A stretch of 64,000 nucleotides of DNA from Fructobacillus durionis. Its GTDB lineage: Bacteria; Bacillota; Bacilli; Lactobacillales; Lactobacillaceae. The position numbers and the translations under genes are program-made. The notes under the pieces are model-generated. The model searched no databases. It was not told the origin of the DNA and saw only the letters and a list, made by a program, of their open reading frames with translations. Shown in pieces: positions 5,587 to 37,848 of this stretch. The stretch covers positions 62,001 to 126,000 of the forward strand of contig NZ_FOLI01000001.1 of assembly GCF_900112405.1 (NCBI RefSeq), written 5' to 3'. How positions within the stretch are numbered: position 1 is the stretch's first letter; each line of letters begins with the position of its first letter.

Positions 5587-5644
5587 TTTGGCATAGAAAC
5601 AAGTGAAGATGGTAGCTATCCTTTCAATTAAGGAGGTGATGTAT

Positions 5645-6030: not shown

Positions 6031-7823
<1,793 letters not shown>

Positions 7824-15541: not shown

Positions 15542-16835
15542 TTATGCTTCATGATGATGCTTTGTAAGGAAGTAGAATGGGACAGCGACAACAAGTGCGC
15601 CTAGACCCCATGCTAAGCTTTTTACGTCGACGTGCCAAAGCAACCAGCCTGAAACAACGAGAGCTAGAAGCGGGATGGCTGGACCAAAGGGTACGTGGAA
15701 TGAGTGCTCCACGCCCTTCTTGGTCTTACGAAAAACCAAGACGGCAATGATGGTTGGAATAAATTGGGCGAAGCGGGAAACGGCAGAAATCTGTGCCAAA
15801 ACCGCAAATGAACCAGAGAAAGCAATGAACAGAGAGACCGTTGATGAAGCGATGATGGCCACAACCGGTGCATCGTGCTTGTTCTTCTTAGCCAAAATGG
15901 CGGGCATCATTTTACTTTCAGCCAGGGCAACACCGGAACGTGGTGTGATAAAGGAAGAGGCCACACAGATACCACCAATGGAAAGGAGGGTACCAAATGA
16001 AATGAGGTTAGCACCGAAGTTTCCAGCAATCACTTGGAAAGTGTCTTTCAGTGGAACCGTTGATGTTGCTAGCTTATCGCCAAGGACACCAATGGAAACG
16101 GTCATTACTAATGCGTAGATGACAACGACGGTACCAAGCGAAATGAGAAGGGCCCGTGGTAAGTTTTTCTTTACGTTTTCCATTTCACCGGCGGTAATGA
16201 CAATGGCCTCAAAGCCGGTAAAAATGTAGAAGAGCGTAATGGCCGCAGCGGCAAAGTGTGGTGTTGTCGTTAACTTTTCGACAAAGAATGGATCAAAGTG
16301 GCTGGGTTTGATGAAGAACAATCCGCAGATAATAATTAAGAAGATTGGTACGAGCTTTCCAACGGTTACAATGTTTGACACCATTGTGGTTAGGCGAACA
16401 CCGGCAATGTTTAACAGAGCCAGGCTAACAAAGAGGATGGTGATAATAATGTTTTTGGCAAGTGGTGTTGCTAAGGAGGGGAAGGTACCGCCTAAGGCCG
16501 TAGCAAAAGCGACATACATTGTTGCTTCAGCAATGATACGAATGGCCCAGGTAACAAAACCGACCTCGTAACCAATGAAGTTACCAAAAGCTTCCTTGGC
16601 ATAAATATAGGGCGCCACCCGTTTGCTTAAAGTAAGAGGCACATTCGGCAAAACACATGGCAATTAAGAAGGCTAAGGCACCGTCAAACAGTAAGACGAG
16701 GATACTTGCCGGGCCAAATAGCTTCATACCAGATGATGGTAGTAAGAAAATACCCGATCCAATAATAGCGTTGATTCCGAAGAGAATCAGGCTAAAAAAG
16801 CCCATCTTTTGAACAGTTGTGGTCTTATTTTGCAT
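15542..16835 (-). pseudogene. APC-family permease, +1 frameshift
   Basis: Two overlapping frames make one 12-helix permease matching its downstream paralogue end to end. The N-terminal part (from 16835) reads through MGFFSLILFGINAIIGSGIF to ECASYFKQTGGA, then goes out of frame; the rest (YIYAKEAFGNFIGYE onward to 15542) is in another frame. Comparison with the intact copy puts the fault at one extra C on the coding strand, in the GGG run at 16610-16612. It overlaps the upstream amidotransferase stop by 11 bases, so the pair were translationally coupled. Either a recent pseudogene or an assembly/sequencing error; no further damage is seen, which argues for recency. Confidence 0.85.
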
Positions 16836-24703: not shown

Positions 24704-25392
24704 TTACTTCTTCTTATTAATTTCATCCAACTTTGCATCAATCTTATTTAAACGGTTTCGCAGTTCATCAATGGTTTTATCTTCCTGCTGCTGGGTGAAG
24801 AAGGAGGTTACCGTACTGGAATGGTTCCAATCAGCCCGATGCCCAGAAACATGAGAACAATGGCGATGCTGCGTCCGACTTCGGTCTTAGGAGAGATATC
24901 ACCGTAACCCACTGTTGTCACTGTGACAACGGGCCACCAGAGGGCATTACCAAAGTTCGTATCTTCGGCCAACGCGTAGATGCCGGCTGAAATCATAATC
25001 AATACAAGTGTAAAGGTCATCAAATAGATGAAACCGTTAGTATTGAGGAACTTATCGATGTTCCTTTTGAACTGGACGCTAAAGCCGATAATACGGACGA
25101 AACGTAGTAGTTTCAAAATTTTATTTGCTCGTGAAATACGGAATAGCGTAAAGAAGGCGTCGAAGGGAATAATGGCTAATAAATCGAAGATATTGGCTTT
25201 GAAAAAGGCCCACTTATTTTTGGTTTGTGTGAATCGGACAATGTAGTCAATCCAGAAGAAAAGTAGGATGAGTCGATCAATCAGGAAAAACGGTGCTTAA
25301 TAAATTGAAATCAGACCTGCAATATCCAGTCCCGCTAATGATATTGAGATGAGTGCTAGCAGCCCTACAACTGCGTGATATAACTTTTTCAT
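24704..25392 (-). pseudogene. Potassium channel (six-helix VIC type), inactivated
   Basis: Reading minus from ATG 25392 (AGAGG upstream) gives a voltage-gated-type channel: MKKLYHAVVGLL, an S4-like arginine-rich segment (LRFVRIIG), pore helix and selectivity filter TVGYGD, final helix, and a coiled C-tail ending DAKLDEINKKK. There are two faults: codon 32 is TAA (25297-25299, just after LISIY, the next residues [10 protein letters not shown] continuing in frame), and a one-base loss near 24815-24822 shifts the frame after IGTIP, so the tail is only readable in another frame. Two independent lesions make this a true pseudogene rather than a sequencing error. A fragment of 102 residues with the filter remains open. 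Confidence 0.88.
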
Positions 25393-34565: not shown

Positions 34566-34754
34566 ATGACAAGCAAACGCGATGGACTAAAAGAAGATCG
34601 TCAATCATTTACGAATGCCCAAGAGAAAGCTGCGTTGAATCATGTGGCTGAGAAGCATGAAAAACACAGTGAGTCGCTTGAACATGCCAAGCATAAAGAT
34701 GCTCGTTATGATAATGAGGCTTTTGAAGCTGAAAAGAAAGAATACGAGGGATAA
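34566..34754 (+). CDS. Small hydrophilic protein, His/Lys/Glu-rich
   Basis: 62 residues, almost no hydrophobic core (HVAEKHEKHSESLEHAKHK central), so probably helical or disordered. AAGGGAG precedes ATG 34566. Looks like a small stress-type protein but is not recognised. Followed six bases later by a second tiny charged gene. Confidence 0.55.
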   Translation: MTSKRDGLKEDRQSFTNAQEKAALNHVAEKHEKHSESLEHAKHKDARYDNEAFEAEKKEYEG

Positions 34755-34759
34755 GACTT

Positions 34760-34903
34760 ATGAATAAGAATCATGAATTTGAAGCAGAAGATGCCAACCA
34801 GGTAGAGGGCGAGAAGCGCCAGGAAGAACGTCTGGAAAAGCAATCAGAATTTGACCTTTCGTCACATGAAGCACGTGAGAAGAAAGCAGAAGATAAGATT
34901 TGA
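34760..34903 (+). CDS. Tiny charged protein, partner of the preceding gene
   Basis: 47 residues, over 40 percent Glu/Lys/Arg/Asp (EGEKRQEERLEKQ), no hydrophobic segment. GAGGG lies ten bases before ATG 34760, within the end of the previous gene. Composition like its neighbour, and the two share one terminator, which supports it being real despite its size. Function unknown. Confidence 0.5.
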   Translation: MNKNHEFEAEDANQVEGEKRQEERLEKQSEFDLSSHEAREKKAEDKI

Positions 34904-34945
34904 TAGTTGATTGAGTCATATAGAATATGTTGTGATTAAGTGAAG

Positions 34946-34989
34946 AGCTCACTAGGGTGTGCGTTGGCATACCGTAGTGGGCTTTTTTT
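34946..34989 (+). terminator. Terminator after the two small genes
   Basis: Long stem from AGCTCACTA / TAGTGGGCT with GTGC / GCAT extension, then seven T. Confidence 0.85.
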
Positions 34990-35147
34990 ATTTCCTAAAG
35001 GTTTCTGTTGCTACCCTTATGAAATAAAGGGTAATGGTAGATTACTCCTTGATTTCGGAAATGATACAAGATGATGAAAGCTCCATTTTGTTTGGAAGGA
35101 AGGGGTATTATGAAAATAAATAATTGTAATTTTAAGGAGGATTAATT

Positions 35148-36729
35148 GTGATTGTTCATAAACAAAAATTACCTGAAAAAAGTCCAACTTTATATATTAT
35201 GGTTGTTGTGGCATGGGGATTTCTACTATTTGTGAGTGTTCCGGCAGTTCTTAGGGATGCCTTACATCAATCAAGATGGTATGCTAGTGTCTTTTTATTA
35301 TTTGATTTAATTGTTATTTCTTATTTCTGGATCAATGGTATGAAGGATTTATTCTATATTTTTTATCGCTATGTCTTTGGAAAAAGTCGAACAGTCTGGG
35401 AATATACAACAATTCATGATTTTTCACACCGGCAGAGACTATTGAAAGAACAACCAAAAGTTGCTTTGATTTATGTAACTTGTAATGATTTTATACCGGA
35501 TGCTTTGGATACCTGTATGAATCAGACCTATCCGAACACCCATACTTATATTTTGGATGATTCAACAGATTTTACTTACCAGCAAAAAATTGATGCTTTT
35601 AGAGAGAAGCATGAAAAAACCGACGTTATTCGGAGAAGTAAACATCTGGGATTTAAAGCTGGGAATATCAATCATTTTTTAAAAAAGTATGATAATTGGG
35701 ATTACTTTGTATTATTGGATAGCGACGAAATTATTCCTAATAATTTCATTGAGGAATCAATTATGTTTTTCATGGAGGATGAAAAGCTGGGCATTTTACA
35801 AGGAAATCACGTTAGTACGAGAAATGAAAACCGTTTTATGAAACGATTTTTTCGAGGTGTTGATGCCCATTGGGCTACCTATCAGAGTGAAAAGGAACTC
35901 TATGGTTTTTTTATCTTTTCTTGGCCATGGTGCCTTAATTAGTAAGGCTTGTTACCGAGCCGCTGATGGCTTTCCAGAGATTGTTTCAGAAGACATAGCT
36001 TTTACAATGGAATCGGTTTTCAAGGGCTATCATGTTCGCTTTGCTAAGAGCATTATTTGTGAAGAGCAGTTTCCTGTTGATTATCCAGCCTTTTTAAAGC
36101 GTCAACATAAATGGGTTGGTGGAAGTCTTGAATTTATCAAGAATTACTTTTGGAAAATATTTAAAAGTACAGAGTTAGATTGGTTTCAAAAATTGGACAT
36201 TCTACTTTTTGTGTTCAACCTACCATTAACATATTTATTTTCTTTATTTTTAGTAACCAATATTTTAATCATGCCATTATTAGGGGTAAGACCTAGCTAT
36301 TCAATTTGGCTGTTAATTCCAACGTTCCTTTTTTATTTTTCGCCAATGTTAAATGATATTATTCATCAGGCGAAATTTGAACCTAGCATTTTAAAACAGT
36401 TCAAGTACTTGTTATCTAGCATGCTACTGTATGGATCAGTCTACTATACGACAGTTGCGGCATCAATGAAGTATTTGTTTACTGGGAAAGCAAAATTTGT
36501 TGTAACACCCAAATTTAATGATAATTATGGATTCTGGCAGAGCTTTTTTATGAATCAAGGGACCTTACTGTTTGTGCTTGCGTTGGTATTGATAAGTTGG
36601 GCTTTGACGGGAGGACTTTCTGGCGTCATTCTTTTGGTTGTTCCAGCAATTTCATCTGTTTATCTAACAGTTATGACAAATCATGAAAATGATTGGTTAG
36701 AGCAAATAGAGGATTATGATCATGACTAA
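35148..36729 (+). pseudogene. GT2 membrane glycosyltransferase, frameshifted at T7 (possibly phase-variable)
   Basis: Together the two frames (35148-35942 and the frame ending 36729) encode one processive GT2 enzyme of the cellulose/hyaluronan synthase type, about 526 residues when joined: two N-terminal helices, DDST and LLDSDE (UDP-sugar and metal), SEDIAF (catalytic Asp), RQHKWVGG (the QxxRW-like acceptor motif), then four to five helices. The frame breaks in ELYGFF at a run of seven T (35906-35912); six T would restore GFLSFLGHGALISK. Start GTG 35148 with AAGGAGG seven bases upstream. The DNA is clearly more AT-rich than its surroundings, suggesting transfer. Likely makes a cell-surface polysaccharide when in frame. 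Confidence 0.82.
35906..35912 (+). repeat. T7 homopolymer at the glycosyltransferase frameshift
   Basis: Seven consecutive T in the coding strand exactly where the frame is lost; loss of one T restores the full protein. Confidence 0.85.
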
Positions 36730-36925
36730 ATTTTTTAAGGATATTTTATATTGGCATTTTGGCTGGGAAACAGGTTTAATACCGGTTCTAGCCATTTTAT
36801 CCGTTTTATTTGTAGTTGTAATGACGACAAATTGTATCGTGCGTTTGCATGTATTGTATCGATATATTTTAGATGATTTGAATCATCATAATCATCATAA
36901 TCATCATGAATCGATGATGTCGTGA
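36722..36925 (+). CDS. Small membrane peptide with histidine-rich tail
   Basis: 67 residues: one strong membrane helix (about 18-40) and a C-terminal tail LNHHNHHNHHESMMS. ATG 36722 follows GAGG (36709-36712) and overlaps the glycosyltransferase stop by eight bases, so it is coupled to it. The histidines are encoded by three perfect 9-bp repeats. May bind metal or act as an accessory subunit of the synthase; not recognised. Confidence 0.6.
   Translation: MTKFFKDILYWHFGWETGLIPVLAILSVLFVVVMTTNCIVRLHVLYRYILDDLNHHNHHNHHESMMS
36881..36907 (+). repeat. Three tandem copies of AATCATCAT
   Basis: Perfect 9-bp unit, three copies, encoding Asn-His-His three times. Copy-number change would lengthen the tail without a frameshift. 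Confidence 0.9.
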
Positions 36926-36937
36926 TTCATGATAAAT

Positions 36938-36972
36938 AAAAAGAGCATTCTAAATGCAGAATGCTCTTTTTA
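36938..36972. terminator. Bidirectional terminator
   Basis: AAAAAGAGCATTCT / AGAATGCTCTTTTT with six-base loop; ends the island on plus and rpiR on minus. Confidence 0.92.
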
Positions 36973-36981
36973 TTTATTAGA

Positions 36982-37848
36982 TTAAGATTGCCGTCGTGTT
37001 CCTTCAATGACATTACGCATTGTATCAACAACTGATTGGGTTGCCTTTGGCAATTTGGATCCGGCAAGAGTGAAAAGCGTGTCGACAATCGTTAGTTGCG
37101 CAATCAATGATGACATTGATTCGGAACGGTAATTGACCTCTTCAGCTAGTGAGAAAAGAGCGATATCGGCCATCTTTGCTAAGGGTGAATCCGGAAAAGA
37201 GGTGATGGCGATGAAAGGAACGTGGTGTTCTTTTAACTTTTGAGCCAGGAAGAGGGTGTCGTCGTTTCGACCTGAATGGGAAATAACAACCGCCGTATCC
37301 TGTGGCGTTAGCTTAACGGCCTGCATCAGTTGAATATCGTAGTCCTGGTGGGAAATGACATCAATTGGGGTACGTAAAAACTTGTGGTAAGCGTTAAAGG
37401 CGACAATCGAAGAACCCCCAATTCCAAAGAAACCAACGCGCTTTGCTGAGATAATCCAATCGAGAGCGTGGTCTAGTTTTGAAACGGATAGGGAATCGAG
37501 TGTCATGGTGAGGGCGTTTTGTGCACCCGAAAAGACTTTACGAGTAATTTCTTTCGTGTTGTCGTCGTCGGTAATTTCTCCGAATAAATCGACGGGGGGC
37601 TTACTGCGTTGGTAAGTGGCGAGGCTGACGGAAAAGTCACGGTAGGAGTCAAAACCAATTTTCTTAACAAAACGTGAAATGGATGCAGTCGAAACGGAGG
37701 ACTTTTCAGCCATTGATTGAATGGTATCCTGTGAAGCCTCGGACATATTACTAATAATGTAGGAAACGAGTTTTTGCTCGGTTTGATTATAGTTGTTTGG
37801 CTCTTGCCCCAAGCGGGTGAAGATGGCCTGTGCTTTGCTTTCTTTCAT
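36982..37848 (-). CDS. RpiR/MurR-family transcriptional regulator of gluconate genes
   Basis: 288 residues: N-terminal RpiR helix-turn-helix (MAEKSSVSTASISRFVKKIG, about 45-64) and a C-terminal SIS domain (GIGGSSIVA near 138, SHSGRNDDT near 184) that binds a sugar phosphate. Divergent from gnd, with two TGAAA-N5-TTTCA palindromes between them, so I infer it controls gnd (and perhaps gntK/gntP) and itself, with 6-phosphogluconate as a plausible effector. Analogous RpiR-type GntR regulators are known in other Firmicutes. Confidence 0.88.
   Translation of the reverse strand: MKESKAQAIFTRLGQEPNNYNQTEQKLVSYIISNMSEASQDTIQSMAEKSSVSTASISRFVKKIGFDSYRDFSVSLATYQRSKPPVDLFGEITDDDNTKEITRKVFSGAQNALTMTLDSLSVSKLDHALDWIISAKRVGFFGIGGSSIVAFNAYHKFLRTPIDVISHQDYDIQLMQAVKLTPQDTAVVISHSGRNDDTLFLAQKLKEHHVPFIAITSFPDSPLAKMADIALFSLAEEVNYRSESMSSLIAQLTIVDTLFTLAGSKLPKATQSVVDTMRNVIEGTRRQS

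Follow-up and report, generated by a model that had tools for sequence, protein, structure and literature searches.

The window, which is the whole 64,000-nucleotide stretch of Fructobacillus durionis DNA analyzed (contig NZ_FOLI01000001.1), contains a GT2 synthase gene in two fragments and a small His-rich ORF that overlaps its 3' end. Both are located in an AT-rich island. The features, in window coordinates, are as follows.

34905-36932, no strand: AT-rich island of approximately 2.03 kb, not present in the 12 other genomes of the genus
34943-34989, plus strand: terminator-like hairpin 5' of the GT2 gene, with a T7 tail
35134-35140, plus strand: Shine-Dalgarno sequence AAGGAGG, read from the sequence, 5' of the GTG start
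35148-35942, plus strand: GT2 first fragment, an ORF of 264 aa with 255 homologous codons and a GTG start at 35148
35556, plus strand: DD motif (DDST), first fragment
35718, plus strand: DSD motif (DSDE), first fragment, codon 191
35906-35912, plus strand: T7 tract, the site of the frame change, seen in the sequence
35914-36729, plus strand: GT2 second fragment, 271 codons (listed ORF 35857-36729)
35983, plus strand: xED motif (VSED), second fragment
36100, plus strand: RQHKW (RxxKW), second fragment
36716-36925, plus strand: small ORF of 69 aa, or 67 aa from a second ATG at 36722
36881-36907, plus strand: three exact 9-bp units AATCATCAT (Asn-His-His three times), seen in the sequence
36938-36971, plus strand: downstream terminator-like hairpin, separating the island from rpiR

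The first GT2 fragment carries two hydrophobic N-terminal segments and the DD and DSD motifs, while the second carries SED, RxxKW, and hydrophobic segments. Both contain a GT2 domain above the Pfam gathering score: PF00535 in fragment 1 (2e-12, 47.8 bits against a cut-off of 23.3) and PF13632 in fragment 2 (8.3e-15, 55.6 bits against 27). No NCBIfam model reached its cut-off for either fragment. The initial annotation described a processive GT2 enzyme with all motifs. DD, DSD, and SED were indeed present; however, RQHKW occupies the position of QxxRW, the form usually given for this motif in BcsA-like GT2 processive synthases, and the window protein is thus of the RxxKW type. The pieces of 255 and 271 aa are flush and gapless on alignment to intact relatives. 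Therefore, the earlier description of a gene interrupted at T7, with a protein of 526 aa if restored, is correct. No second lesion was found in the window GT2. Since the two fragments are flush and approximately equally conserved (49 and 46% identical to the GT2 of Philodulcilactobacillus myokoensis), this is one lesion, and probably a recent one.

The break is located approximately 61 codons after DSD, before SED and RxxKW. An AlphaFold model of the intact P. myokoensis GT2 (pLDDT 87.7) matched BcsA with Z 26.5 over residues 12-507 (454 residues, rmsd 3.9, 14% identity), and BcsA was its best Foldseek match over the whole length (E 8.1e-19). This predicted fold, a BcsA-like GT with a TM channel, is that of the nearest intact relative and not of the window's own protein. 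The family profile also retrieved BcsA sequences at 1.2e-10. In a PDB sequence search, fragment 1 alone matched BcsA chains only, weakly (E 0.0011), and fragment 2 alone matched nothing at E 0.1. In the P. myokoensis model, the channel-side helices (residues 354-504) are all behind the break position. Fragment 1 keeps the donor-binding DD/DxD half and is devoid of xED, RxxKW, and, judging from this model, the later TM helices and channel; fragment 2 is without the donor half and its site. Since the motifs and the channel are split between the fragments, neither should work, and we expect both to be null. As the small ORF starts approximately 770 bases 3' of the stop at 35942, its translational coupling would also be lost.

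The GC content is 0.338 in the GT2 gene, 0.310 in the small ORF, and 0.336 in the island (34904-36932), as opposed to 0.425 and 0.453 in the two flanking genes; the GC reported as well below that of flanking core genes was confirmed. The flanking genes are udk and rpiR. They are 47-520 bp apart on one contig in all 12 other genomes of the genus, and approximately 2.5 kb apart in the window. G007, the closest species, is approximately 90% identical to the window in the island flanks; blastn matches of the flanks reach 34904 on one side and 36933 on the other, and in G007 these two points are separated by 12 bp. At the DNA level, no copy of the island was detected in the 12 congeners, where the sole match was 25 bp long (G012). 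Because the udk-rpiR site is empty in 12 of 12 congeners, gain is the simplest reading, and we infer gain rather than repeated loss: the island was probably acquired recently in the F. durionis lineage. The terminators said to bound the two genes correspond to strong hairpins on either side. The fold of 34940-34995 has an energy of -32.5 kcal/mol and z -8.69 (upstream hairpin), and that of 36860-36985 has z -6.35 (downstream hairpin); neither was listed by a simple consensus terminator scan. Two small charged ORFs without a Pfam match are located 3' of udk (34566-34903), and by eye this pair is also present in the G007, G011, and G008 stretches.

The nearest relative of the window GT2 is an intact orphan GT2 of P. 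myokoensis (L090/L045). Among 301 genomes of the family (Lactobacillaceae), the second fragment matched 28 at E 1e-5 and only seven, one of them its own genome, at E values no higher than 2e-35. With a model built from the first fragment and the corresponding part of the P. myokoensis protein, 8 of 397 matched at E 1e-25. Plasmid matches were found in 7 of 72,556 records, including pF8801 (Pediococcus damnosus) and pl12112-4 (Levilactobacillus brevis), at 31-32% identity. A scan of named genomes with the second fragment alone gave no match, and a closer one with a two-row alignment gave 29 related loci. Clostridia-type MAGs account for 22 of these; the other seven are from P. myokoensis, Enterococcus, Streptococcus, a Saccharibacterium, Candidatus Ancillula, and two bacterial MAGs. 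An uninterrupted ORF of at least 507 aa is present in 25 of the 29 loci (two of them, L092 and L094, being identical). L098, L117, and L118 are interrupted, and the ORF of L096 continues past the end of its contig; these four are outside the trees, L117 having been dropped because it had no split motif. Of the 25 full-length members of the clade, 24 have KKRxxKW, and L091 was not matched by the pattern. In L098 (Candidatus Saccharibacteria 47-87), an in-frame stop at 6793-6795 replaces a conserved Gly (GGFPHV to VG*FPHV) in a GT2 frame that is open elsewhere; this is a point mutation or, less likely, recoding.

The window and P. myokoensis form a pair in both fragment trees (96/84 and 99/94). 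In each tree, six Gtf-type proteins fall outside the window clade at 100/100, and the window GT2 consequently did not group within the Gtf clade; these trees are unrooted, with a midpoint root for drawing only, do not include Tts, and contain flagged long branches, the window's among them. The RxxKW clade, spanning Bacillota, a Saccharibacterium, and Candidatus Ancillula, is a group of little-described BcsA-like synthases. A literature search on Fructobacillus with glucan synthase and exopolysaccharide found no report. The exopolysaccharide literature on Philodulcilactobacillus, as far as the available part of one article goes, concerns GH70/GH32 enzymes (PMC12849098).

Among congeners, only G006 (L044, 8914-10440) has a close relative, a Gtf-type synthase gene holding in-frame stops. 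The match begins at query residue 43-44 and carries an in-frame TAA. A break common to the window and G006 was considered and rejected because the G006 DNA has an in-frame TGA, which is a different lesion in a Gtf-type gene. By eye, the acetyltransferase-like gene adjoining this copy also looks broken.

The small ORF was annotated as a tiny membrane peptide with three exact 9-bp Asn-His-His units, and we found it as described. It overlaps the 3' end and stop of the GT2 gene, has GAGG upstream, and encodes one hydrophobic segment and a His-rich tail. It had no family match in Pfam or NCBIfam. Homologue searches matched 4 of 13 genomes of the genus at E <= 1 and 39 of 301 family genomes at E <= 0.1 (own genome included in both), none of them credible: matches other than the window itself were 6e-4 or weaker, and those in the family were 23-48% identical, many with internal stops. 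The best (G005, L041) contains a TGA and lies over another ORF. A plasmid search gave one match (E 8), and a phage search gave none. A 49-aa hydrophobic ORF located 3' of the P. myokoensis GT2 resembles the TM segment of the small ORF; however, 47 of 2000 segment-wise shuffles scored equally high and a Shine-Dalgarno sequence is absent, and the likeness may be one of composition only. No convincing counterpart of the small ORF was present 3' of GT2 in the relatives looked at. We rejected a conserved pair of GT2 and His-rich peptide because the genus, family, plasmid, and phage searches yielded no credible homologue. The suggestion that the peptide is an accessory subunit retains circumstantial support from the overlapping start, GAGG, and the hydrophobic segment, but not from partner ORFs in relatives. 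A lineage-specific coupled membrane peptide is possible.

The initial annotation proposed that homopolymer slippage could switch a surface polymer on and off. On this account, slipped-strand mispairing at T7 would toggle the synthase and the coupled small protein. The single lesion is precisely at the longest homopolymer of the gene, T7 being its only run of seven or more. Pneumococcal tts, a kin gene, is reportedly phase variable by sequence duplication, a finding attributed to Waite et al. in 2003 (cited in PMC12231264). A relative in Streptococcus sp. 596553 (L117, 6079-6094) changes frame at (TA)8. The only other TA/AT run of at least four units in this 12.6-kb locus has four units, at 5613, and (TA)8 is a candidate simple-repeat switch. 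However, a T7 run is ordinary for the composition of the window gene. In a first-order Markov simulation without coding constraint, 2.9 A/T runs of at least seven were expected in the gene, with a probability of 0.95 for at least one; 19 such runs are present in the window, and five other places in the genome have T/A runs of at least nine. Seven is also short against the criterion in the available part of a study that counted tracts of at least eight and regarded those longer than 8 bp as likely to vary (PMC11287997). Furthermore, the run is not common to clade members. The motif YGF(L/S)(S/T)xLGHG spans the T7 position in relatives, and the longest run there was five or less in 26 of 26 readable members (30 rows, from which the window, L110, L117, and L118 were dropped as false pattern hits; the L110 site was read in a separate motif listing). 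The differently broken Gtf-type copy in G006, and the one-base breaks in other window genes and in an L. brevis gtf record described below, also argue against a switch. We consider phase variation at T7 unlikely. Still more doubtful is the broader reading in which the RxxKW clade supplies small-genome lactobacilli with a one-gene capsule, switched by short simple repeats (T7 in the window, (TA)8 in a Streptococcus), and a coupled His-rich, single-TM protein serves as a lineage-specific subunit.

Programmed recoding, by ribosomal frameshifting or transcriptional slippage at U7, would yield some full-length enzyme from the gene as recorded. U7 is a possible slippage site. However, a -1 shift reaches a stop within approximately 10 codons, which leaves only +1 or -2 useful; the fold of 35860-35980 (z -0.99) shows no unusually stable structure, and no readable clade member has a comparable run. 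Recoding is accordingly the least probable of the explanations weighed here.

Two other genes in the window have one-base frame breaks and are intact in G007: an amino-acid permease (15545-16835, minus strand), which an intact paralogue adjoins, and a gene labeled by eye as cation-channel-like (24707-25392, minus strand). Neither break is in a long homopolymer. At least three window genes, including GT2, are thus one base away from an open frame. An automatic break finder, using 79 G007 proteins with an orthologue, flagged one gene in the window, and the permease was added by eye and confirmed; the reverse comparison flagged 0 of 79 in G007. The finder missed the permease, probably via its paralogue, and the broken-gene counts are a minimum on both sides. 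In a plasmid of L. brevis TMW 1.2113 (L089, 755-2457), gtf is split into two ORFs. It differs from the TMW 1.2112 gtf by three one-base homopolymer changes within approximately 100 bp; sequencing noise left in the record, or decay, may account for them. These records bear on an assembly or sequencing indel, in which the synthase of the living strain is intact and the recorded tract length is wrong. The excess of one-base breaks over G007, where cases can be missed, and the clustered changes in TMW 1.2113 are consistent with such an error, and the latter show how records of this kind can come about by error or decay. However, the other two window breaks are outside long homopolymers. We regard an indel of this type as a possible but secondary explanation; it ranks next after a fresh loss-of-function frameshift.

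On balance, we favor a single-gene synthase locus that was recently gained and then suffered this fresh frameshift, i.e., a young pseudogene. The single flush lesion, the empty sites in congeners, the expected T7, the other one-base breaks, and the broken G006 copy argue for it. Against it, T7 is the gene's only run of seven, as slippage would predict, and a phase-variable or mis-sequenced gene without a second lesion would look identical. The product of the intact gene would be a membrane GT2 like BcsA, polymerizing a UDP-sugar and exporting the chain via a TM channel of its own. A gene for UDP-glucose pyrophosphorylase is present. A parallel may be drawn with the Tts/Gtf beta-glucan synthases, for which one gene suffices to make a capsule; by analogy, the product would be a polysaccharide, forming a sugar coat. 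In the sequenced clone, an ordinary T7 tract would then have changed in length by one base and broken the gene. This small-genome lactobacillus has thus probably gained a polysaccharide synthase that needs one gene only and, it appears, has freshly lost it again. When the same assembly has other single-base breaks, a frame that is broken at a T7 in an AT-rich gene says little in favor of phase variation.

Three known systems are comparable. BcsA shares the predicted fold of the nearest intact relative. It differs in having QxxRW where the window has RxxKW, and the island holds no other bcs-like gene. BcsA also carries a regulatory PilZ part, which has no counterpart in the 507-aa P. myokoensis relative. 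The P. myokoensis GT2 is closest to the window GT2 and is intact; it differs in having no T7 at the site, no convincing small-ORF counterpart, and other neighbors. The third system is the plasmid-borne Gtf of P. damnosus pF8801, P. claussenii pPECL-7, and L. brevis pl12112-4. Members of the Gtf/Tts class make a 2-substituted (1,3)-beta-D-glucan. In the available part of one article, the Gtf beta-glucan synthases of lactic acid bacteria are kin of pneumococcal Tts, and the pl12112-4 gene AZI09_12770 is described in a capsular beta-glucan producer (PMC8951740). The window has RQHKW and VGGSLEF where Gtf has RSSKF and CSANFEF; an insertion that precedes LGHG in the 567-aa Gtf is missing from it, as is most of the Gtf C-terminal tail. 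However, both are single membrane GT2 genes, with DD-or-DN, DSD, and AED motifs in Gtf and DD, DSD, and SED in the window, and the second window fragment is 31-32% identical to the three plasmid-encoded proteins. The window GT2 is placed in a separate but related clade, beside the Gtf beta-glucan synthases.
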